Source: an uncultured Candidatus Actinomarina sp. (GTDB lineage: Bacteria; Actinomycetota; Acidimicrobiia; Actinomarinales; Actinomarinaceae). Taken from it: a stretch of DNA of 43,747 bases. This document shows positions 25,137-43,747 of this stretch, piece after piece. The notes below the pieces were generated by a model. It was not told the DNA's origin and searched no databases. It was given only the letters and a program-made list of their open reading frames with translations. The DNA lies in contig CACJJR010000006.1 of the NCBI GenBank assembly GCA_902593795.1, positions 1 through 43,747 of the forward strand. Direction: 5' to 3'. The translations under genes were made by a program, and so were the position numbers. Each line of letters opens with the position of its first letter. Positions within the stretch are counted from its first letter, which is position 1.

Positions 25137-28100
25137 TCAACCAACTTTTACAAACTCCCAATTATTGTAATCAAATTCGTACCTACCAGGACCTTCGGGT
25201 TCATATACTGGAGGTCTTCCACAAACATAATCTGCCATATATACTTTGCCATCTTCACCACCTACAAGCCCTCCTGATCTGGTTGTACCTTTAAATCTCT
25301 CACATAGCTGTTGTATTAAGGGATACTCAAGTCCAAAGTAATATGTTGCCATTGCCTTAAATATAGATTGTTCAATTTCTGTTGCTGCGGGATGAGAAAC
25401 TAAGTCATCGTATGTGTAAGCCATATCACGATAAAGAAACCTTAAAATAAATGTTTCCTCTTTAGGATCTTTTGAAATACCCTCAATGTAAGTGTCTATT
25501 GCTTTTAGATATAAATCTAGGGAAGCCCTTTCATTATTTTCACCTTCAAGTAAATTACGAGCTATATCTTTGTACCCACCCGCCAGAGCCATATAATTTC
25601 TTAAAAGGTCGTCTAGGTTTGCGTCGTACCAAACAGGATTTTCAAAGTCTAATTCACGGAGTACAACCGGGTTTTGTTTAATATTTGCTAAGTCACAGTC
25701 ACTAAGTTCAATATCATATTGTTCTTGATCAGCTCTACATATTTGACTCGATGCTCTTGCAATTTCTTGTTTAGCTTGCGAAACACCAAGCCAACTCGCA
25801 TTAATAGAATATGCTGAAAATAATTCTTGATCTTTTCTAAGCTGATTCTGATTAATATTATTTTTTTTGTTAAGGTTAATTTTTTGTTCTAAAAGATTAA
25901 ATATAAGAGAGAAATCTGTAATAGATGATACCTTTCCAATTTCGTTCATTGCGAGACTATATGCAATATCGTAATAGTCATATTTATCGACGTCGTTATT
26001 CATTACTGTAGCCATAGCCATATAGGCATAAGGTAGGCTAGGAATTAATTGGATAGCTTCTTCTACAAGGCCGCTAGAATTTTGCTCAATCCCTGTATAC
26101 ATAAGCTCTTTATAGGTATCAATATCTGAAATTTTTATATCACCATATTCAACATCAGTAACTGTAACTTTCTCAAGAGTCTTGTAACTTTCTGAGTTTA
26201 TTAGAAATTCAAAAATATCAAAATTGATTCCCCCAAGGCCATCCCAAACAAAGTTGAGATTATATTCATCACCTTGAGGATTTCTCCAATTATCATCGCC
26301 ATTTACAACTTCATTAGCAAAATAGTGGCTAAACACTATCTCTGCTTCTGTAAACTTTCTTTCACTTAACACACTAAATGTTAGATTAAGTTTTTCTGGC
26401 TCCTCTCCATAAGCGTAAGAGCGAGGTCCGTAATGATTTATATAATCATTTATATCCCAAGAAATTACTTCTTTAGCCTTTATTTCATTATTTTCATCGC
26501 ATGCAAAATACTCAGTGGTTTCAACACAACCTATCACAGTTGGATTTACTAATTGATAATAAGTTTCTGTGACTTCCTCAGGCTTTAAAAGACCTGCTGC
26601 GTACAAGAAAATTTGACTATCTTGAATGGAGTCTCTTTTAATGGCTTTAAATTTATCACCATCTTTAACTACTCTTGTTGAGAATCTCTCTGTGGGAGTA
26701 ACAATAAATACAGGTTTATATGTACGTCCATCCGATTGCAATACCTTAAAACCACCTTGAAGAGTATTAGTAGCAGTTGATAATGGTGATAGGTGCATGC
26801 CATCATCACTTAGTGATTCTCTATATCCTGGACGAGGAAATCCGTATTTCCCTCCGCCAGTTTGCCCATAAATTGAATGTTGGAATTCATGTACAAATGA
26901 TCCAAATTCTGGACTTCCAAGCATCAATACCATTTGCAATTCAAGATGAGTTTTACCATCAGACCATGGACCTACTTTTATTTTATTATCTTGTGCTGGT
27001 GCAGGTTTTCCATTTGATTCATAATAATCTTGAAAGAAACCTGTTCCACGTATATGATCTGCAAGTCTCATCATATGACCACCGTGATAATATTCTCTTG
27101 CCCCTAAAACAATTCCATTGATGTTATCATCAAAAAGTTCAAAAATTCTTCTATATGCTTGTGCATCAAGATTTGGACTAAACACAACAGGGTAGTTGTT
27201 ATTTTCGTATTGTGAATAATCATATCCAATATTCATGAATAATGAATTTCTTGTAGCCCATGTATTTTCACTTATATGCTTAATTTCTACTGTTCCTTTA
27301 AGCGCAGGATCAATAACTCTCACCTCTGCTTTATCAACGAAGGATTCTTTACTAAAGTCAATATCATAAGTAAGTTTCATACAATTATTTGTATACAGTC
27401 CATCACCTGCAACAGCATCTCCATGAGTTCCGTCATCATACAGATAAGGGGGTTCTATATTTCCACCGTCAGAAGATCTCCATTCATCACTGAATTCTAT
27501 TTTTGACTTACCTGCATTGAAATTTAAATTATCCTTAACGATAATTTGTACTGCTTCACCAGGAAAAATAACTTGTGGATTATAGTATGCCTTAAAAAAA
27601 TCAGGTTCATCACTCCCCGTACCAGCTATGAATCTTGTTCCATGAAGGCTTCTTAACCATTTAGGATTGTAAACACTTGATGCAAAAAATTGATCAATCA
27701 TATCATAGTTTGTATAAGAGCCTTCAGTTACCGTGGCATCACAGGAATCTGTTTGTTGTGGGATGTAAAGATTATTATCTGGGCAATCTAAGAGATCACC
27801 ATTAATTTCACAAAATCTATTAATTGGTATATCTCTTATATCTTCAGCAGTAAAGCTACTTTTTTGATCAGAATTCTTTACATCATTTTTAATATTGTAG
27901 AAATCACATAGTGGAAGAATCTCAATTCTTATTGCAGAAGTTTTATCTTTGATTTGTTCTAAAAAGGACTTAATTTTATTGAGGTTGTCCTCAGATGGAT
28001 TAACTCTGTCATAACGTATATTTTTTTCAATTTTGTCTCTAAGCCCAGATATTGAATCACTTTCCCAATCTATTGTTTCAACAAATTCTGAATTTAATTC

Positions 28101-29051
28101 ATTTTCAGAATATACAGTTTTATCCTCATCACTGATCGGCTCATTTCTTTTTCGTATAGAATCTTCAATATGTAATGCCCAACCAGTTAACTCAGCAAGT
28201 TCATTTGTCATTACAATGAAGCTAGATAAATCTAAACACCCTTCTAGATTTATCGTACCAATAGCAGTACCGGAATTATCATTCTGATATACACTATCTG
28301 GATTACACAATTTTGAAGAAAGCAATATATTGTTCTTATCATTGAGTTGCTGTTTAAGGCTTTCAATCTCATCTCTCAATGTTTGTTCGCTCGTTCCTTC
28401 GGCTAAAGAAATCTCATTTTTTAAACGCTTTATTTCTTTTAATCTGATTTCCACTTCAGGATCTTCATTAAAGCTTCTAAATAAATTTAATTCTGTATCT
28501 AGAAGTTCAAGCTTAAGCCTTGCCTCATCTAACACATCTTTCTCTTCTTGAGATAGGTTTTCTTTATTTTCTAAAGGTGCAATAATACCGTCATAAACCT
28601 CTGCAAGAATTGCATCTTGACCAAAGTTTGCAAAATCAACATCTGCATAGCTAATTCCAAGTTGCGACTCTAATGATTGCTTCCTGTCTCTTAATTGTTG
28701 GATATATTCATTATTACCTGAATTGCTTAATTCTGATTCATAATCAGCTTGAACCCTTTCAAGGACTGCAAGATCTTCTTTCATATTTTGCAATTCTTCC
28801 TCAGAATAAGTAATGTCGGCTGAAAGAGCTAAAGTCTCTTCTTGATTTCTTAACTCACTAGTGATTTCAGCAATTTCTGATGTGAGAGTCTCAACACTAG
28901 CATCAGATAAGCATTCTTCATCTGCAGATGATTCATTATCAGTACTTATATTTTCAGCATCAGTCGTTTCTTCTTCAATGGTTGTTTGATTACTTGAGCA
29001 AGAAGAAAATAAAAGAATTAAAACTAGAATTAAAGATATTTTCCCCCTCAT
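25137..29051 (-). CDS. Large lipoprotein with coiled coil, choice-of-anchor-like domain and HExxH motif
   Basis: This 1304-residue lipoprotein has a signal ending FSSC (C18) and a Thr/Glu/Ser spacer. A long charged coiled coil spans about 50-245. From about residue 250 to 530 there are scattered cysteines. YDDGTHGDAVAGDGLYT (538-554) is a Ca-binding-like DDGxxxDxxAGDGxYT segment of the choice-of-anchor X type. VHEFQHSIYG (HExxH at 721-725) suggests a zinc metallopeptidase-like site. The last 400 residues are mostly helical, perhaps TPR-like. It is presumably anchored on the outer face of the membrane. Function is unknown; secreted or surface metallopeptidase is the best guess, but zinc binding and proteolysis are unproven. 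A terminator downstream is not apparent. Confidence 0.75.
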   Translation of the reverse strand: MRGKISLILVLILLFSSCSSNQTTIEEETTDAENISTDNESSADEECLSDASVETLTSEIAEITSELRNQEETLALSADITYSEEELQNMKEDLAVLERVQADYESELSNSGNNEYIQQLRDRKQSLESQLGISYADVDFANFGQDAILAEVYDGIIAPLENKENLSQEEKDVLDEARLKLELLDTELNLFRSFNEDPEVEIRLKEIKRLKNEISLAEGTSEQTLRDEIESLKQQLNDKNNILLSSKLCNPDSVYQNDNSGTAIGTINLEGCLDLSSFIVMTNELAELTGWALHIEDSIRKRNEPISDEDKTVYSENELNSEFVETIDWESDSISGLRDKIEKNIRYDRVNPSEDNLNKIKSFLEQIKDKTSAIRIEILPLCDFYNIKNDVKNSDQKSSFTAEDIRDIPINRFCEINGDLLDCPDNNLYIPQQTDSCDATVTEGSYTNYDMIDQFFASSVYNPKWLRSLHGTRFIAGTGSDEPDFFKAYYNPQVIFPGEAVQIIVKDNLNFNAGKSKIEFSDEWRSSDGGNIEPPYLYDDGTHGDAVAGDGLYTNNCMKLTYDIDFSKESFVDKAEVRVIDPALKGTVEIKHISENTWATRNSLFMNIGYDYSQYENNNYPVVFSPNLDAQAYRRIFELFDDNINGIVLGAREYYHGGHMMRLADHIRGTGFFQDYYESNGKPAPAQDNKIKVGPWSDGKTHLELQMVLMLGSPEFGSFVHEFQHSIYGQTGGGKYGFPRPGYRESLSDDGMHLSPLSTATNTLQGGFKVLQSDGRTYKPVFIVTPTERFSTRVVKDGDKFKAIKRDSIQDSQIFLYAAGLLKPEEVTETYYQLVNPTVIGCVETTEYFACDENNEIKAKEVISWDINDYINHYGPRSYAYGEEPEKLNLTFSVLSERKFTEAEIVFSHYFANEVVNGDDNWRNPQGDEYNLNFVWDGLGGINFDIFEFLINSESYKTLEKVTVTDVEYGDIKISDIDTYKELMYTGIEQNSSGLVEEAIQLIPSLPYAYMAMATVMNNDVDKYDYYDIAYSLAMNEIGKVSSITDFSLIFNLLEQKINLNKKNNINQNQLRKDQELFSAYSINASWLGVSQAKQEIARASSQICRADQEQYDIELSDCDLANIKQNPVVLRELDFENPVWYDANLDDLLRNYMALAGGYKDIARNLLEGENNERASLDLYLKAIDTYIEGISKDPKEETFILRFLYRDMAYTYDDLVSHPAATEIEQSIFKAMATYYFGLEYPLIQQLCERFKGTTRSGGLVGGEDGKVYMADYVCGRPPVYEPEGPGRYEFDYNNWEFVKVG

Positions 29052-35870: not shown

Positions 35871-36410
35871 CTACTTTAATTTAAAAGCCAAGCCTATTGC
35901 CAAAATAGACTTAATAGCATCTCCTATCAAAAATGGGACAACCCCTATTGCAATAGCATTTGAGAGTGAAGTATTTAAAATTATCATCAAACCAGAAACA
36001 CCTGCAATATAAATAGTCATTGAACCTAGGACAATGGCCAGTATTGGTTTAGTTGCAAAAGCACCTATTACATAAGCTGCTAGAAAAAATCCTATTATGT
36101 ATCCTATTGTTGGGCTTTTTAAAATTGCAAGACCAGCGACACCTGCTGAAAAAAATGGAAGGCCGGACATTCCAATAAATAGATACATTAACATACTGAT
36201 TGCTCCGAAAGTACTACCTAGAATTAATCCCGATAAAAGCACAACAAATGTTTGACCTGTTATTGGAACAGGTGAGATTGGAATAACAATTCGAACCTGA
36301 GCACTAAGAGCAGTTAATATTGCAAAACCAAAGGCCAAAAATAAATTCCTTGCGATACTACCTTTTTCTACCCATGTAATGGCAATATTTTTAGAGGGGT
36401 ATGTTTCCAT
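35871..36410 (-). CDS. bioY: Biotin transporter BioY
   Basis: This 179-residue protein has about six membrane helices and the BioY motifs VRIVIPISPVPITGQTFVVLLSG (about 41-63), with GLPFFSAGVAGLAILKSPTIGYIIGF in the middle and an FLIGDAIKS segment near the end. It is the substrate-binding (S) component of a biotin uptake system of the ECF family, sometimes working without its own ATPases. It is sandwiched between the two carboxylase genes, overlapping the upstream gene by 20 nt, so biotin uptake is made with the biotin-dependent enzyme. No biotin synthesis genes are present in the window. Confidence 0.93.
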   Translation of the reverse strand: METYPSKNIAITWVEKGSIARNLFLAFGFAILTALSAQVRIVIPISPVPITGQTFVVLLSGLILGSTFGAISMLMYLFIGMSGLPFFSAGVAGLAILKSPTIGYIIGFFLAAYVIGAFATKPILAIVLGSMTIYIAGVSGLMIILNTSLSNAIAIGVVPFLIGDAIKSILAIGLAFKLK

Positions 36411-37884
36411 GTTTATCTCCTAACTCTCCTTTATTTACTAAGTCTTTAAATGAGTCAATAACTACTTTTCTCGTCTCACTTGGTTTTATAATATTGTCGA
36501 TTAAACCTAATTGTGCAGCAATATCAGGATTACTAAATTTATCATTATATTCTGTTACTAACTTTGATTTAAGCTCTTCTTTATTGTCGGCAGCAGCTAT
36601 TTCTCTTTTGTGTATTATATCAACTGCTCCCTCAGCACCCATAACTGCAATTTCACCACTTGGCCAAGCAAATAATTTATCTGCACCAAGACCTATTGAG
36701 TCCATAACGATATAAGCTCCACCATACGCTTTTCTAATAACCACACAAACCCTTGGAACTGTAGCTTCTGAGTATGCGTATAAAAGTTTTGCACCGCTTC
36801 TAATAATTCCTCCGTGTTCTTGTTCAACGCCAGGTAAAAATCCAGGAACATCAACTAAAGTAAGAATAGGTATATTAAACGCATCACAAAATCTTACAAA
36901 CCTTGCTGCTTTTTCTGAAGCCTTAATATCTAGAACTCCAGCTAGCTCCATTGGTTGGTTAGCAACTATTCCAATTGTATTTCCATTTACTCTTGCAAAA
37001 GTTGTAATAATGTTTAGTGCATAATTACTTTGAATCGGATAGTGCTCTCCATCATCTGAAATATCTGAAATTATTCTTGCCATATCATAGGGCTGATTTC
37101 TATTTTCTGGTATGAAATTATCTAAAGACTCTATTGTCCTAGAAGAATCATCCTCTGTAATGAATACAGGAGGTTTTATAGATGAAGACTGTGGTAGAAA
37201 GCTCATAAGATAACGAATTTCTTCAAATGCCTGTTCTTCAGATTCACAAATTTGATGTGATACGCCTGATTTTGTACCGTGTGCTTCTATTCCACCTAAT
37301 TCTTCATAAGAAACATCTTCTCCAGTTACAGTTTTAACTACAGCAGGTCCTGTCACATATAGTTGTCCTATATCTTGTACTTGAAAAATAAAGTCAGTCA
37401 GTGCTGGACTATAAACCGCTCCGCCTGCAGAGGGACCTACTACTACAGAAATTTGTGGAATTTTTCCTGATGCTTCAACATTCTTTTTAAAAATTTGAGC
37501 ATACCCATACAAAGAAGAGATTCCTTCCTGAATTCTTGCCCCACCAGAATCTTTTATTCCAATAATTGGTGCCCTAGCTTCTAGTGCGTGATCCATTAAT
37601 TTTAGAATTTTTTTAGCTACAACTTCACCTAGGCTTCCTCCCATGACAGAAAAGTCTTCACTAAATACAAATACCGGACGTCCATGAATAGTGCCTGTAC
37701 CGGTTACAACTGCTTCACCATCAGGATTTTCTTCAGAAGTAACTTGTTGGTCTATTTCGCTGAAAGACCCTTCGTCCAAAAGTAAATTTAGTCTTTCATA
37801 AGCTGTTAATTTTCCCTTTGGATGCTGAATTTTTTTAGCTTTTTCATTACGAATTTCAGCTAAATTATCGTCTGACATGCCCAT
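36391..37884 (-). CDS. accD: Acyl-CoA carboxylase beta chain (carboxyltransferase)
   Basis: This 497-residue carboxyltransferase of the propionyl-/acetyl-CoA carboxylase type has a KLTAYERLNLLLDEGSF start, VFSEDFSVMGGSLGE, GIKDSGGARIQEGISSL (oxyanion Gly residues), GPSAGGAVYSPALTDF and LVDVPGFLPGVEQEHGGIIRSGAKLLYAYSEATVP. It accepts carboxybiotin from the fusion protein and carboxylates acyl-CoA. The length and motifs match AccD/PccB proteins. It is the first gene of the leftward fatty acid operon. An alternative start is the third codon (M, S). Confidence 0.94.
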   Translation of the reverse strand: MGMSDDNLAEIRNEKAKKIQHPKGKLTAYERLNLLLDEGSFSEIDQQVTSEENPDGEAVVTGTGTIHGRPVFVFSEDFSVMGGSLGEVVAKKILKLMDHALEARAPIIGIKDSGGARIQEGISSLYGYAQIFKKNVEASGKIPQISVVVGPSAGGAVYSPALTDFIFQVQDIGQLYVTGPAVVKTVTGEDVSYEELGGIEAHGTKSGVSHQICESEEQAFEEIRYLMSFLPQSSSIKPPVFITEDDSSRTIESLDNFIPENRNQPYDMARIISDISDDGEHYPIQSNYALNIITTFARVNGNTIGIVANQPMELAGVLDIKASEKAARFVRFCDAFNIPILTLVDVPGFLPGVEQEHGGIIRSGAKLLYAYSEATVPRVCVVIRKAYGGAYIVMDSIGLGADKLFAWPSGEIAVMGAEGAVDIIHKREIAAADNKEELKSKLVTEYNDKFSNPDIAAQLGLIDNIIKPSETRKVVIDSFKDLVNKGELGDKHGNIPL

Positions 37885-37943
37885 CTTTCCTGTTTATTGT
37901 TAATGTATGTATTTGACCTATATATATGTAAAGAAGTAACACC

Positions 37944-38600
37944 GTGAAAACCTTTTTTTTTGAATCCATTTACAATACACAAGAATTTGCACTAAGTGAA
38001 CTATCAAGTGAACCAGTTCTTGTAATTAGCTACTCACAGGAAAAAGGAAAAGGCACATCAAATAGAACGTGGTTAAATGCAGATCAAGCCCTTGCATGTT
38101 CACTTGCAGTAAAACAAGAAGACATAAAATTAAAACACACACTTATCCCACTCCTTTCAGGTTATTCATTTATAGAAGTTTTTAAAGATACGAAACTCAG
38201 CTTAAAGTGGCCCAATGATATCGTTTTAAACAATTTAAAAGTTGGAGGAATACTTGTTGAAAAATCTAAAAACAATATTTGTATTGGAATGGGCATAAAT
38301 TATTTTTGGGAACAACCGGAAATACCTGGAGCAGGATCAGTTTTCACTAAAAAACAAGAATATTCATTAATCAATTTACATGCAAAAAAATGGGCAAACA
38401 ATGTGCTGTCTTCACTTACCAAAAATAATTTTGATATAGATAAATACAAACAAAGATTACAAACAATTGGGAAGATTGTGGAATACCCAGAAGGTAGAGG
38501 GTGGGCTGAAGATATAAATAAAGATGGATCACTAAAAATAAAATCAATTAATGGAGATTACATTAATCTAACCTCACCCTTAATTTCCGAAGTAAATTAG
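37944..38600 (+). CDS. birA: Biotin--protein ligase, catalytic-only
   Basis: This 218-residue ligase starts at GTG and has KGKGTSNRTWLNADQAL (biotinyl-AMP loop) and LKWPNDIVLNNLKVGGILVEKS (catalytic region), with a short C-terminal domain. It attaches biotin to the K528 site of the carboxylase. The N-terminal winged-helix DNA-binding domain of E. coli-type BirA is missing, so it is not a repressor. It diverges from the carboxylase operon across 59 bp, a sensible arrangement. Nine Ts lie a few codons after the start. Confidence 0.93.
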   Translation: MKTFFFESIYNTQEFALSELSSEPVLVISYSQEKGKGTSNRTWLNADQALACSLAVKQEDIKLKHTLIPLLSGYSFIEVFKDTKLSLKWPNDIVLNNLKVGGILVEKSKNNICIGMGINYFWEQPEIPGAGSVFTKKQEYSLINLHAKKWANNVLSSLTKNNFDIDKYKQRLQTIGKIVEYPEGRGWAEDINKDGSLKIKSINGDYINLTSPLISEVN

Positions 38601-38621
38601 TTATTATTAAACAGGAGACAA

Positions 38622-40712
38622 ATGAAACAGCTAGTAGTTGAAAAAAATAATCCTACACCTATTCTATGGGAAACTCCTATTCCAAATCCCGGACCGGGTG
38701 AGATACTTATTAAAAATCATTATTCGGTTGTTTCATCAGGTACAGAGTTAGCTACGATTGAAGTAGCAAATACCTCAGTCGCGGATAAGATTCAAAACAG
38801 TTCAAACATTTCTAAAGGATTAGACCTATTAAAGAAAGAGGGCTTAAGAGCAGTTTGGAATGCCGTATTCCCAAAAAATCTCCTTCCTCTACAACTTGGT
38901 TACAGCTCTGCAGGGGAAGTTATTAAGATTGGTAAAGGAGTTAGTGCTTACCATGTCGGCGACAAAGTTGTATCTAATGGAGGTCACGCCGAATATGTTG
39001 TTGTTAGTGAAAATCTATGTAGTCGAATTGATGAGAATACAGATATCAAAGAAGCGGCTTTCACTGTTTTAGGAAGTATTGCTTTACATGGCCTTAGACT
39101 ATCTGAGACAACCCTTGGTTCAAAAGTAGTTGTAATTGGACTTGGTGTAATTGGACAATTAGTGTGTAGTCTCGCAGAAGCACAAGGATCAGAAGTAACT
39201 GGAATAGACCCTGATCCTGAAAGGTCTAAAAATAGAGATAACTTTTTTACTTCTGCAAACGATATTGAACTAAGAGATGTTGATACTGTAATTATTACTG
39301 CTGCGACAAGTAGTAATGAGCCTATAGAATTAGCTACAAAGATTGCACGCAATAAAGCAAAAATTGTTGTTGTTGGTGATATTCCACTAAATATTTCTAG
39401 AAATGATTTTTACTATAAAGAACTAGAACTTGTTGTTTCCAAGTCTTACGGGCCCGGAAGGTATGATAAACAATACGAAGCTCTTGGAAATGATTATCCA
39501 ATTGAATATGTTCGATGGACCGAAAATAGAAATTTTGAGGCATTTACAAATCTTCTGTCTCAAAAACAAATTCATTTGTTGGACTTAGTATCTGAAGAGA
39601 TAGCATTTGAAGACGCACCAAGCGTTTATAAAAAATTTGATAATGAGATTAAGCCATTATCAGTAATGCTGAGATACAACATTGATGCTGAACCAAAAAT
39701 TGAAATGGCAAACGATTTAGAATCAGAGCCGAGAACATCAAAAGTAAATGTAGGAATATTAGGAGCAGGAAATTTTGCAGCTACAACAATAATGCCTGTT
39801 CTTAAAGAGCTGAAAAGAGAATGTAAAGTTCTTGGCATAGCATCTTCAAAGGGATTAAGTGCAGAGTCGCTCGCAAAAAATTTTAGAATAAAAAACAAAT
39901 ACTCCACAGAGGATGAAATACTGAATGCAGATGAAATAGATGCCGTCCTGATACTAACACCCCACCACAATCACGCAGATTTAGTAATTAAAGCACTAAG
40001 TAAAGGAAAAGCTGTTTATGTAGAAAAACCATTAGCATTAGAACTTCAGTCAATTACAGATATTGAAGAAAGTATTTATAGATCAGAAAATCCAAAATTG
40101 TTTATTGGTTTTAATAGACGATTTTCTGAATCGGTTCAATTTATTAAACAAAAATTAATTAATAGTCCGGCAAATAGTATAAATCTACGATTTAGTGTTC
40201 CACCTCTTGACGCAGACCACTGGACAAATATAAAAGAAATTGGAGGTGGGAGAATTGTTGGTGAGGCAGTGCATGGTATTGACTTAGCTTGCTATTTGTT
40301 TGATTCTCTGCCTCAAAGTATTTCAGCATCTGCACCAATAGACAAAACAAATAATATGGTAAAAGATAATCAAGTTTTCTTAAATATTAATTTTGCAAAT
40401 GGTTCCCATGCGTCTTTACAATATTTTTCCGAGACAAATCAAATATTAAGTAAAGAACGAATAGAAGTACATGGCGGGGGTAACTCTTACATCATGGAAG
40501 ATTTTAGAATGTTAAGGTTTCTAGAAGGCTCACAAGATAGAAGTAAAACATTTTCATCAGGCAAAGGACACAAAGAATCTCTAGGCATCTTCTTTGATTA
40601 TGTAAGAGATAAATCAAACAATCCTTTTACTTGGGAGGAAATTAAAGCTGTTTCTAAAGCTGCAATAATTGCTCAAAAGTATATTAATTCAGGCCAACAA
40701 CACACAGTTTAG
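38622..40712 (+). CDS. MDR-dehydrogenase / Gfo-Idh-MocA oxidoreductase fusion
   Basis: This 696-residue two-domain protein has a medium-chain dehydrogenase (MDR) portion at residues 1 to about 350. It shows a GEILIKNHYSVVSSGTE start, YSSAGEVIKIGKG, GDKV, and a Rossmann site VVVIGLGVIGQLVCSLAEAQG (about 168-188). The usual catalytic zinc cysteine near residue 40 is absent. Residues 370 onward form a Gfo/Idh/MocA domain: GILGAGNFAATTIM (Rossmann), ILTPHHNHADLVIKAL, VEKPLALE and the later GGGRIVGEAVHGIDLACYL. Such fusions are known from bacterial polysaccharide or sugar-nucleotide clusters, where they act on sugar intermediates, but no such cluster is seen here. Substrate is unknown. Confidence 0.85.
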   Translation: MKQLVVEKNNPTPILWETPIPNPGPGEILIKNHYSVVSSGTELATIEVANTSVADKIQNSSNISKGLDLLKKEGLRAVWNAVFPKNLLPLQLGYSSAGEVIKIGKGVSAYHVGDKVVSNGGHAEYVVVSENLCSRIDENTDIKEAAFTVLGSIALHGLRLSETTLGSKVVVIGLGVIGQLVCSLAEAQGSEVTGIDPDPERSKNRDNFFTSANDIELRDVDTVIITAATSSNEPIELATKIARNKAKIVVVGDIPLNISRNDFYYKELELVVSKSYGPGRYDKQYEALGNDYPIEYVRWTENRNFEAFTNLLSQKQIHLLDLVSEEIAFEDAPSVYKKFDNEIKPLSVMLRYNIDAEPKIEMANDLESEPRTSKVNVGILGAGNFAATTIMPVLKELKRECKVLGIASSKGLSAESLAKNFRIKNKYSTEDEILNADEIDAVLILTPHHNHADLVIKALSKGKAVYVEKPLALELQSITDIEESIYRSENPKLFIGFNRRFSESVQFIKQKLINSPANSINLRFSVPPLDADHWTNIKEIGGGRIVGEAVHGIDLACYLFDSLPQSISASAPIDKTNNMVKDNQVFLNINFANGSHASLQYFSETNQILSKERIEVHGGGNSYIMEDFRMLRFLEGSQDRSKTFSSGKGHKESLGIFFDYVRDKSNNPFTWEEIKAVSKAAIIAQKYINSGQQHTV

Positions 40713-40747
40713 AAAAATTTATTACTATTTACTTAAAGAATTAAAAA

Positions 40748-43747
40748 GTGAAAAAATTTAAAATTCTCTTTGTTGTTTTAGCGCTTATAGCTTCTGCATG
40801 TGGTGGATCAAATGACATTCAAGAAGCATCTCCAGATAGCACTACAACTTCTTCTACAACAACCACTTTGGCTGTTGAGCCTGATATTGGGGAAGTAGTG
40901 GATGAAGCTGCATTAGTAATACCACCAATTTTATTAAAGCCATTAATTGGAGCAACAGGAGTCTTGACAGATGTTGCCGAGGATTGGGAGATTCTGTCAG
41001 CGATTACTCCATTAGAGATGGGTGTAAAGATAAGAACAGGTGACGACGCAACTGCTCAAATGTCGTTTGAAGACGGATCTTCACTTTTAATGGGTGGTAA
41101 TTCGGTAATTAGTGTTAGAAGTTTTGATTATGATGATGAGGCCCAATCAAGAGTGCTTATTGTAGACTTAATTTCTGGAAGTGTTGCATATGATATTTTT
41201 AGTGATGGCTTAAGTGCTTCTTTAGCAAAAATAGTTACTCCAACTTCGGAGCTTTCTGTTCATGGAACGGAAGGTGTGTTTGAATATGATGTCACTACAT
41301 TATCAGCATCAAGTACAGTGCTAGAGGGTGGTGAACAAAGTGATGATGCAGTATTTAGTGAGTTGCTTCCAAATGAAGATGGAACTCCAGTACTTGTTGC
41401 GGTCTCTCAAACAGCTGGTACAGAATTAGGTAGTGGTACCACAGGAGGTTCGGGATGGACAGATGAGGATTCTTCAACAGTTGCTCTGATTGTTGATGAG
41501 TTTGTTTCAAATATGGAAGGTGAGTGTAGTTATACTTGTAAAGCACAGACACAGGAAAACTTAGCAGAGGGATCAGAAGATTTAACTGCTGATGTAGCAG
41601 CAAATGCTGTTTTTACAGAAAACGACACAAAGAGAATGGATTTAGCACAGACGCTTTTAGTTGCTGCTGGAGCACCAGGCGAGATAACGGATTCAGTAGA
41701 AGTTTTAGCTGACGCAGTAGAAGACGTAGCGGTCCCACAAGAAGTTGTTGAAGAATTTATTAATGCAAATTGGCAAGTAGCTCCTGAAGATGGTGCCTTA
41801 CAAGAACTACCACCAACTTCGGAGTTTTTCGGTACTTTTGAAGACGCAGCATCTGTTCATGATAATCAAGCATTTGAAGATTTAGGATTTGATCACAATG
41901 AAAGCAATAATTTCAGAGCACAACATGGCATGATGCAATTTATTTCAGCAGATACCAATGCTGTTAATGAGTTGGCAGAAACAGGAGACATGGCATCGGC
42001 AATGGCTTTAGCTGCATCTAATATGTTTGTAAATGCCGGCCAAGACCAGTTTGTTGAGGGAACTTACTGTGCCGATAATCCAGAAGATCTTGAGTGTGCT
42101 GCCGGAGCGCCACCACCAGATTTCCTTGCACAAGCTTTTGCTGGCAACCATTTTGTTGAGGACATGGTTCAAGACATGGGGTTTGAATACACTTTTACAG
42201 AGAACAGTATAAAACCTGGGTACTGTGATGAAGAACCATGGTTACCTGAGTGTGCTGATGGGCCACAATATGTTGGAGATGCTTTTGAGCAGGGTGGAGC
42301 CTATTGTGAAGCAAATCCGGAAAATTGTGAAGAAGGAGGTCCAAAACCAGGTAATAGTTTCTTTGGAGCAGCTCCTAAAGATGACTCTTTTTGTTCTGCA
42401 AATCCTGAAGCAACTGAATGTGCTGGTGGAAATGCTCAAGCAGTTTATACATTTTTCCACGTATATGATGAGGAAGTATTAGGGGACGAATGGAAACCTG
42501 TTGATTGTAATGAATACCCAGACGACTCTATGTGCAGTGGTGAAGGGGACTTTTTTCATGAACATGTAGGAAATGCGACAGGACTTGCATTAGATCGAGA
42601 TGACATGTTTGATATTTATGGTGGTCCGCAAGAATTATTAGGCCCCCCCGATGAATTCTGTAATGAAAATCCTGAAGCTACTGAATGTGGAGATAATTAT
42701 AGACCAGCTGATGTTTTCTCTGGAGGGGAATATGTTGCTCCTGGATATTGCGATCAAACACCAGACGCACCTGAATGTGATTCAGGATTTGGACAAAGTG
42801 GAGGGCTGAAGGGTCCTTTGACTGGGGGATTGCTAGCTCAATATGCAGCTCCAGATCCAAATGCCAGAGCTGGTGAAAAGCCAAATTTCTGTACAGAAGA
42901 CCCTAATCACCCAGAATGTTTTAGAGATTATTACGGAGAAGGTAATTTAGATAAAGGTGAGTTTTTAGGCAATATGTTTAGTGATGATTCATATGTTGAC
43001 TTAGCTCAGCAAGGAGTTTTCTATAATTCAATTGAAGGAGCAGATGATTTAGCGTCTCAAAGATATGGTAATCATGATGATTATTTTGTTCTTGATTGCT
43101 CGGCTCCTGGAAATCAAAATGAACCAGGATGTCAAGAAGGTTTTGATCCAGCAGAATCTGGATTATTTGCAGGTGGAGAAAATGGTGTAACAGAATTTGA
43201 GGCATTTAATCCTGAAGATGTAGATACACTTTGTCAGGACAATCCTCAAGATCCTCTCTGTTACGCTCAACCAACAGAAGGTGAAGGTCCTGGTCAAGGT
43301 GATGCTTTTGGTCCACCACCTGAAGGAGATTTTGCCCCAGGAACACAACCTGCAACAGGCGGTTTTTGGGGAGATGCTGAGAAAGCAGAGGAATTTCAAA
43401 ATCAATCAGATAACTTTACCGAGTTTGCAGGAAATTATTGTGATGAAAATCCAGATGATCCTTCATGTTCACAAGTAGCACCTCCTCTCCCTCAAAATGG
43501 AATAATACAGGACCAAGATTGTGATGATAATCCTTATGCACCTGGATGTCCTCAAAGTGGTGGACAAGAAGGTCAAGAACCTCCTCCTGAGGGAGAAGGT
43601 TATAATCCTCCTCCTGGGGGTGAGGATAACCCTCCTGGTGGAGTAGTACCTTCTGGTGGACAACAAGAACAAGAAGATTGTGCAAACAACCCAGCAGCGC
43701 CTGGATGTCAACCTGGACAAGAAGGTCAAGAACCTCCTCCTGGGGGA
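40748..43747 (+). CDS. FecR-domain lipoprotein with 13 two-cysteine repeats, 3'-truncated
   Basis: The frame is open for exactly 1000 codons from GTG to the window end, so the gene is partial. It starts with a lipoprotein signal ending ASAC (C18) and a Ser/Thr spacer. A FecR-type beta domain (about 64-195) has GVKIRTGDDATAQMSFEDGSSL and TPTSELSVHGTEGVFEYDV...LEGG. A helical region of about 240 residues follows. From residue 441 to 987, 13 short motifs of the type C-x-x-N-P-x-x-P-x-C appear, separated by 17-60 acidic residues. The end is Pro/Gly/Gln-rich. FecR domains elsewhere sense sigma-factor or pore signals; here it is more likely a scaffold of an external protein. No homologue with these repeats is recognised. 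It lies after the dehydrogenase fusion (35 nt). Confidence 0.85.
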   Translation, partial: MKKFKILFVVLALIASACGGSNDIQEASPDSTTTSSTTTTLAVEPDIGEVVDEAALVIPPILLKPLIGATGVLTDVAEDWEILSAITPLEMGVKIRTGDDATAQMSFEDGSSLLMGGNSVISVRSFDYDDEAQSRVLIVDLISGSVAYDIFSDGLSASLAKIVTPTSELSVHGTEGVFEYDVTTLSASSTVLEGGEQSDDAVFSELLPNEDGTPVLVAVSQTAGTELGSGTTGGSGWTDEDSSTVALIVDEFVSNMEGECSYTCKAQTQENLAEGSEDLTADVAANAVFTENDTKRMDLAQTLLVAAGAPGEITDSVEVLADAVEDVAVPQEVVEEFINANWQVAPEDGALQELPPTSEFFGTFEDAASVHDNQAFEDLGFDHNESNNFRAQHGMMQFISADTNAVNELAETGDMASAMALAASNMFVNAGQDQFVEGTYCADNPEDLECAAGAPPPDFLAQAFAGNHFVEDMVQDMGFEYTFTENSIKPGYCDEEPWLPECADGPQYVGDAFEQGGAYCEANPENCEEGGPKPGNSFFGAAPKDDSFCSANPEATECAGGNAQAVYTFFHVYDEEVLGDEWKPVDCNEYPDDSMCSGEGDFFHEHVGNATGLALDRDDMFDIYGGPQELLGPPDEFCNENPEATECGDNYRPADVFSGGEYVAPGYCDQTPDAPECDSGFGQSGGLKGPLTGGLLAQYAAPDPNARAGEKPNFCTEDPNHPECFRDYYGEGNLDKGEFLGNMFSDDSYVDLAQQGVFYNSIEGADDLASQRYGNHDDYFVLDCSAPGNQNEPGCQEGFDPAESGLFAGGENGVTEFEAFNPEDVDTLCQDNPQDPLCYAQPTEGEGPGQGDAFGPPPEGDFAPGTQPATGGFWGDAEKAEEFQNQSDNFTEFAGNYCDENPDDPSCSQVAPPLPQNGIIQDQDCDDNPYAPGCPQSGGQEGQEPPPEGEGYNPPPGGEDNPPGGVVPSGGQQEQEDCANNPAAPGCQPGQEGQEPPPGG
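42065..43708 (+). repeat. Thirteen C-x2-N-P-x4-C coding repeats
   Basis: The first cysteine of each motif falls at residue 441, 493, 520, 549, 587, 638, 668, 715, 784, 829, 898, 925 and 978 of the lipoprotein. Most have ten residues from Cys to Cys (for example CADNPEDLEC, CDENPDDPSC, CANNPAAPGC); motif 3 has 8 and motif 9 has 12. An aromatic or Asp usually precedes the first Cys. Even spacing within the motif and uneven spacing between them suggests individual small disulfide loops. Confidence 0.85.

Follow-up and report, generated by a model that had tools for sequence, protein, structure and literature searches.

The end of contig C6 in the Candidatus Actinomarina genome G000 raises the question of what kind of protein is encoded by a long open frame that combines a FecR domain with a tract of paired cysteines. 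The stretch of DNA analyzed (the window) is the entire contig, 43747 bases, of a 1.07 Mb genome that is assembled in 11 contigs and is 88.9% complete. The frame begins with GTG at position 40748 and runs for 1000 residues, with no stop codon up to position 43747, the final base of the contig. It had been described from the sequence as an exported FecR lipoprotein of at least 1000 residues, and this was supported by the open frame, a lipoprotein-like leader, and a match to PF04773 above the cut-off; as a whole, the original prediction captured a real observation and overstated it. We place at slightly better than even chances the reading that the product is a lipid-anchored, disulfide-stapled surface protein, the distal half of which is a variable, recognized face. 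The interesting part of the finding is the mosaic and accessory behavior of the gene. The CSYTC pair at residues 260 and 264, the Pro/Gly/Glu tail, the presence or absence of the gene, its relocation, and the exchange of its distal half were all features beyond those noted earlier.

The FecR domain scored 32.4 bits on the protein (cut-off 24) and 36.9 bits on the DNA and was the sole FecR match in the genome at E ≤ 0.001. The cysteine following the leader was judged by eye from the sequence Cys18-Gly-Gly, with Ala at position −3 in the window and Leu in many relatives; on the lipobox rule, Cys18 was read as the lipoprotein cysteine. Similar leaders and T-rich linkers are carried by other lipoproteins. 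The acidic nature of the chain was evident from 191 Asp and Glu versus 23 Lys and Arg residues in the mature part, which also contains 28 cysteines besides that of the anchor. Thirteen cysteine pairs are located past residue 440, 11 of the type C-x8-C and one each of C-x6-C and C-x10-C. Proline occupies the fifth loop position in 12 of the 13, and Tyr or Phe precedes eight. The 13 C-x2-N-P-x4-C repeats claimed earlier thus correspond to 13 real cysteine pairs, only seven of which follow the strict form; the loop starts are irregularly spaced, 27–69 residues apart, and therefore do not form a regular tandem repeat. A search of the whole genome with the strict pattern at the DNA level gave nine forward and no reverse matches, seven of the nine being in this gene, as compared to one forward and one reverse match for the reversed control pattern; the enrichment of the loop motif in the gene is not due to chance.

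Comparison of 15 orthologous sequences showed that all 22 cysteine columns within residues 427–911 are invariant, as against 174 of the 485 columns overall (hypergeometric P 6.5e-11). Among 187 aligned loops retaining both cysteines, 158 were C-x8-C, 159 contained the proline, and 88 were strict. Most sequences, though not every one, retain loops 12 and 13, some being cut short there, and the tail begins around these last two pairs; in the copy at locus L008 the tail is a tandem repeat. The longest member (L012, 611–4330, + strand) measures 1240 residues from stop to stop with 50 cysteines and is without a clear hydrophobic in-frame leader. The motif had been said to belong to no recognized family, and this held true: FecR was the only Pfam match of the window protein at E ≤ 0.1, the tract had no match in PHROGs, and the best hit of a profile search against PDB sequences had an E value of 0.77. 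Known cysteine-repeat domains (EGF-like, TSP3, and others) likewise gave no tract match in Pfam, PHROGs, or PDB sequences. Cysteines 6–10 residues apart can presumably pair locally, and closely spaced pairs would be expected to oxidize in lit, oxic seawater.

The relationship of the window gene to its relatives changes along its length. In all 80-residue steps starting at or before residue 560, the closest copy was L003 or L008, while from about residue 640 it was L004, L005, L006, L007, or L010. Of 152 informative sites, five matching neither group were dropped; among the 147 used, 61 of 68 on the left fitted L003/L008 and 72 of 79 on the right fitted the other group. The junction was placed between residues 639 and 645 with a log-likelihood gain of 55.3, compared to at most 9.5 in 500 shuffles. 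Trees of residues 50–599 and 640–911 rejected each other in the approximately unbiased (AU) test (p 2.6e-58 and 5.7e-98). Further junctions were found at residues 613–616 (L013), 616–623 (L011), 617–625 (L015), and 617–623 (L004); that of L007 lies at 507–515, and L006 showed a weak split only (gain 5.6). The five junctions at 613–645 are not independent, as L004, L011, L013, and L015 show the same exchanges from different sides. Loops 5 and 6 are separated by a conserved stretch, ALDRxDMFDIYGGP, where the junctions sit, except for that of the window, which is inside loop 6.

The cleanest case of exchange was observed between L014 and L015, which are 90.8% identical in the upstream gene, 93.3% in the proximal half, and 87.3% in the downstream gene but only 62.5% in the distal half, i.e., a block was swapped and the flanks remained intact. 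L004 and L013 are 91.7% identical in both the upstream gene and the proximal half and 68.1% in the distal half, with no downstream gene at hand. The gene is thus a mosaic, in which species have swapped the distal cysteine tract, in most cases at junctions within residues 613–645. A four-combination argument gives at least two such exchanges, and three are more likely. A junction common to several genomes is unlikely to stem from a chimera of single-cell assembly, although the window's own junction comes from one genome only.

A profile search of 42 genus genomes identified orthologues in 15, matching the whole protein or most of it, and their genomic placement varies. At one position (site B), an M20 peptidase gene lies upstream in 11 of the 15 copies; in five of these (L005, L007, L010, L011, and L013) the M20 flank alone is on the contig, and in the six with both flanks the gene is followed by an FtsX/MacB permease gene. 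Fifteen genomes were examined for the permease, and in 11 of them site B is empty, the M20 and FtsX genes being direct neighbors whose aligned coding parts are separated by 28–35 bases; of the remaining four genomes, three break off there at a contig end (G007, G012, and G019) and one has the gene (G020). Four of the 11 genomes with an empty site B (G000, G009, G064, and G031) have the gene at another position. In the window and L008, it occupies site A, between the zinc-ADH/GFO-IDH-MocA fusion gene and a tRNA-Arg gene; the L003 copy is situated elsewhere (upstream flank only), and that of L026 elsewhere again, flanked by a single short frame (at least 70 residues) that had no match. No conserved operon partner was seen across the 15 copies. 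The clean empty sites and the at least three chromosomal positions indicate an accessory gene. Among four gene-less genomes opened at site A, the fusion gene is followed in three (G022, G033, and G061) by an inositol monophosphatase gene, assigned by PF00459 for G022 and by likeness for the other two, and in G017 only about 280 bases, with no gene, separate the fusion gene from tRNA-Arg. Replacement of the inositol monophosphatase gene by this gene would be one possible history of site A. About 2.6–6.5 kb upstream of the gene in L004, L006, and L014, a block of small frames (about 180–250 residues) was observed between an acyltransferase gene and the M20 gene; some of these frames are mutually related, their content differs between genomes, and none of the five scanned in L014 matched a Pfam family.

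The surroundings of site B also bear on the proposal that the cysteines and acidic loops form a metal- or thiol-binding surface that chelates metal. Along with the invariance of the cysteines, a permease gene of the ABC-3 (metal-type) transporter class located about 5.4 kb downstream of the gene in L014, with related frames in L006, L009, and L015, would fit such a role. However, no frames related to this cluster were seen in 8 kb around the L008 copy at site A, so the ABC-3 gene does not travel with this gene; moreover, the cysteine pairs are accompanied by few His residues, and export to oxic surface water would presumably leave close thiols oxidized. A metal-binding role is thus very unlikely. 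It had been put forward earlier together with a disulfide-stabilized stalk or adhesin; the latter kind of reading is still the most plausible, and the metal-binding surface is backed by little beyond composition.

As envisaged in the disulfide-stapled surface protein reading, the host is a marine actinobacterium that lives free and probably has a single membrane, and the product would be a lipoprotein attached to the outside of the cell membrane; an outer membrane is considered unlikely for the order in PMC7771536, which counts in favor of this placement. The membrane-proximal base would comprise the T-rich linker and FecR domain plus another conserved segment, and beyond it a long acidic chain stapled by 13 local disulfide loops would lead to the repetitive Pro/Gly tail. 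The distal half would be exposed, recognized by outside agents (phages, grazers, or a ligand), and replaced as a block by interspecies recombination within the conserved sequence that separates loops 5 and 6, while the whole gene would be gained, lost, and relocated. The sequences themselves show the architecture, the cysteine invariance, presence and absence, the different positions, and the mosaicism, whereas we infer that the protein is lipidated and exposed at the surface, that its loops form disulfides, and that recognition acts as the selective force.

Several observations bear on this reading, most of them against it. Ratios of non-synonymous to synonymous substitution (dN/dS) against five relatives were about 0.03–0.12 in the FecR, helical, and cysteine parts (14 of 15 values computable) and 0.09–0.85 in the leader and linker, rough values given that dS is high and synonymous sites are near saturation; the low ratios point to a maintained protein, which is in its favor, and give no sign of strong positive selection at single sites, which is not. 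The AlphaFold2 models were of low confidence, with a mean predicted local distance difference test score (pLDDT) of 35 for the whole protein (13 rows) and 43 for residues 50–435 (15 rows). Recombination extends beyond the gene into its flank, since in L006 and L014 the M20 gene (93.2% identical) conflicts with the nearby FtsX gene (81.4%), and the swapping could be neutral homologous exchange landing in a conserved stretch, as would be expected there. No VKOR and no Thioredoxin_4 (DsbA-like) protein, the oxidoreductase families searched, was found in the 88.9% complete genome, so that the check for disulfide machinery suggested earlier came out negative; this means another catalyst, an assembly gap, or unassisted oxidation of the local loops. 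A more specific proposal, namely that a streamlined, free-living ocean bacterium with few variable genes maintains a two-module surface protein with a conserved lipid-anchored FecR base and interchangeable disulfide-looped heads, swapped across species at one conserved junction for escape from phages or grazers and with loops oxidizing without a VKOR/DsbA-type catalyst, can be advanced only tentatively and is somewhat improbable.

Purifying constraint, together with recombination in a flank too, is also what would be expected of a structural cell-wall or envelope spacer, i.e., a lipid-anchored, disulfide-stapled stalk passing through peptidoglycan without any recognition, and for which the swapping would be no more than neutral homologous recombination of a gene that is polymorphic. 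The acidic chain, the irregular loops, and the Pro/Gly/Glu tandem tail agree with it as well. However, the gene was not found in 27 of the 42 genus genomes, including four of the eight that are at least 90% complete (the other four, G009, G012, G031, and G064, carry it); some of these absences reflect incompleteness, but the empty sites are clean, and L014 and L015, with their similar flanks, differ in the distal half alone. The spacer is regarded as unlikely. The coordinates of the features are given in Table 1.

Table 1. Features of the gene and its left neighbor in the window (contig C6).
Feature	Coordinates	Strand	Basis or remark
Zinc-ADH/GFO-IDH-MocA fusion gene	38622..40712	+	Left neighbor at site A; outside the system
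Lipoprotein-like signal peptide, residues 1–17, ending ...LIASA|C18-GG	40748..40798	+	Sequence; Cys18 invariant in 15/15
Presumed lipid-anchor Cys18 and Thr/Ser/Asp-rich linker, residues 18–45, fast evolving	40799..40882	+	Conservation profile
FecR domain, residues 94–194	41027..41329	+	Pfam PF04773 above cut-off
Segment 241–436 with conserved C260-SYT-C264	41468..42055	+	Cys invariant in 15/15; helices only in low-confidence models
Cysteine-loop tract, loops 1–11, residues 441–907	42068..43468	+	22/22 Cys invariant in 15 sequences
Exchange zone, residues 613–645	42584..42682	+	Junction here in 5 of 6 comparisons with a strong junction (7 made)
Distal module, residues 640–1000	42665..43747	+	DNA identity 85–96% to L004/L005/L006/L007/L010; 67–82% to L003/L008
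Loops 12 and 13, residues 925–934 and 978–987	43520..43708	+	Sequence
Start of Pro/Gly/Glu-rich tail, loop 13 inside, broken by contig end	43550..43747	+	Tandem repeats in L008

The open 3′ end is most likely an effect of assembly and does not reflect a strange gene structure. In seven of 14 sequences (the window and L003–L015), the contig stops within or close to the tail, at about residue 924 or later, and several relatives have closed frames with a complete tail. Contig C4 of the same genome ends within the equivalent of the tRNA-Arg gene of L008 (93% identity over 400 bases), directly before the ABC transporter gene (PF00005) that comes after the gene in L008. In view of this synteny of C4 with L008, the gap between C6 and C4 should contain just the remaining tail and part of the tRNA. 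No Rfam family was found in positions 36000–43747 of the window. Elsewhere in the window (25137–29051, − strand), a further lipoprotein-like frame of 1304 residues had no Pfam match and contains the sequence FVHEFQHSIYG, which resembles an HExxH metalloprotease site.

The family is real, so far restricted to the genus, and uncharacterized. In a class sample of 296 genomes, the same 15 genomes alone carried the gene, in a search that scored at most two candidates per genome and was therefore weaker than the phylum-wide tract search. The latter, with the cysteine-tract profile, matched one of 396 sampled phylum genomes, the window's own, and found no relative in the 395 others. A long homologous family with an established function had been named as grounds for setting the original prediction aside; a family does exist in the genus, and an established function was not found. 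Weak matches outside the 15 orthologues, in the genus short matches to the leader, were rejected; the ranges listed for them reach at most over query positions 1–76, except for two covering 1–105 and 3–115. Four that were opened proved to be two HELVH/HELTH lipoproteins and two substrate-binding-type lipoproteins (one with PF12974), sharing the leader and T-rich linker and not the FecR-cysteine body. A second lipoprotein type with a T-rich linker and VHELVH/VHELTH stretches was observed in L030 (319–1713, − strand) and L029 (283–1902, − strand), adjoining in both genomes a frame that by eye resembles an ABC exporter. No relative was found in phage records or among the 74 and 69 pattern stretches of two viral-contig scans, and plasmids gave 11 records, all of them weak rhizobial matches with 10–13% coverage at residues 69–195, in the FecR region. 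An origin from mobile elements, with a phage or plasmid as vector, is not supported by these searches. No account of the gene was found in the literature searched, nor a paper there pairing Actinomarina with FecR; the terms searched in PMC7771536 led to no mention of the gene, and the words lipoprotein, disulfide, and secreted had no occurrences.

The FecR domain itself would suggest an anti-sigma factor or signal transducer of a FecI-like sigma factor, and leptospiral FecR-domain proteins are regarded as likely FecI-FecR analogues in PMC13066512, which favors such a reading of the domain. The genome encodes one Sigma70_r4_2 protein, of 196 residues. However, this protein, the sole such match in the genome, is encoded on contig C3, away from the window, and no sigma factor was present among the nine window and ten L014 neighbors scanned, in line with the earlier remark that FecR is uncoupled from any sigma factor or FecI-like gene in the window. 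FecR of the FecI/FecR/FecA system (PF04773) possesses a cytoplasmic N-terminal anti-sigma domain and a membrane helix, whereas here only a 17-residue leader, judged by eye, precedes Cys18, and this lipoprotein-like start leaves no cytoplasmic domain. As there is no cytoplasmic domain and the sole Sigma70_r4_2 match is on another contig, FecI/FecR signaling appears unlikely and is not supported; the gene was also not found in many relatives. A regulatory role is accordingly the least credible of the readings, and highly improbable.

Among known proteins, the nearest by name are LipL45 and Lsa33 (NF033165 and NF047849), families of Leptospira; they are named as a lipoprotein and a "surface adhesin" and have a FecR-like region. 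At E ≤ 0.1, 16 NCBIfam families had a match to one or more of 13 members, and all 13 weakly matched the LipL45 and Lsa33 models. This would be in keeping with an adhesin or ligand-binding lipoprotein (e.g., for polysaccharide or particle surfaces) whose distal alleles set ligand specificity. However, the window protein scored only 19.1 bits with LipL45 and 21.5 bits with Lsa33, far under the cut-offs of 350 and 420; its three NCBIfam matches are all below cut-offs and inside residues 1–195. The two models have 310–391 positions, and the match is confined to residues 75–195, in the FecR region and not the cysteine tract. No binding domain was recognized in the rest of the protein, and the adhesin is considered unlikely.

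This locus bears on the open question of how surface variation arises under phage pressure in abundant ocean bacteria with tiny genomes, for which the answers have mostly been glycan islands. If the reading of a recognized, variable distal half is true, one gene whose heads are interchangeable at a single junction would constitute a second, protein-level route of surface variation. In PMC7771536, fGI1 of Candidatus Actinomarinales is described as the main flexible envelope island (43–79 kb, containing genes for envelope polysaccharide); tRNA sites are named there as hot spots, and evasion of phages as a likely driver of envelope variation. The present locus is similar to fGI1 in its variable, putative envelope gene, its tRNA site, and the proposed evasion of phages, but it is a single protein gene, located at tRNA-Arg in two genomes and mostly elsewhere. 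The same source suggests less interspecies recombination in the order than in Pelagibacterales and reports an old cassette transfer between genera (PMC7771536); the mid-gene exchange between species stands out against this picture. The types of distal module would provide a testable marker that can be traced in metagenomes against phage abundance. Pneumococcal PspA/PspC and Borrelia OspC are anchored surface proteins with an exposed part that is swapped between strains by recombination. The protein described here is likened to them by description, but the bacterium that has it lives free in the ocean and faces no host immune system, and its exchange takes place between species-level genomes. 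Recombining surface proteins are a kind already known, and what would be new is the occurrence of one in an unexpected organism.

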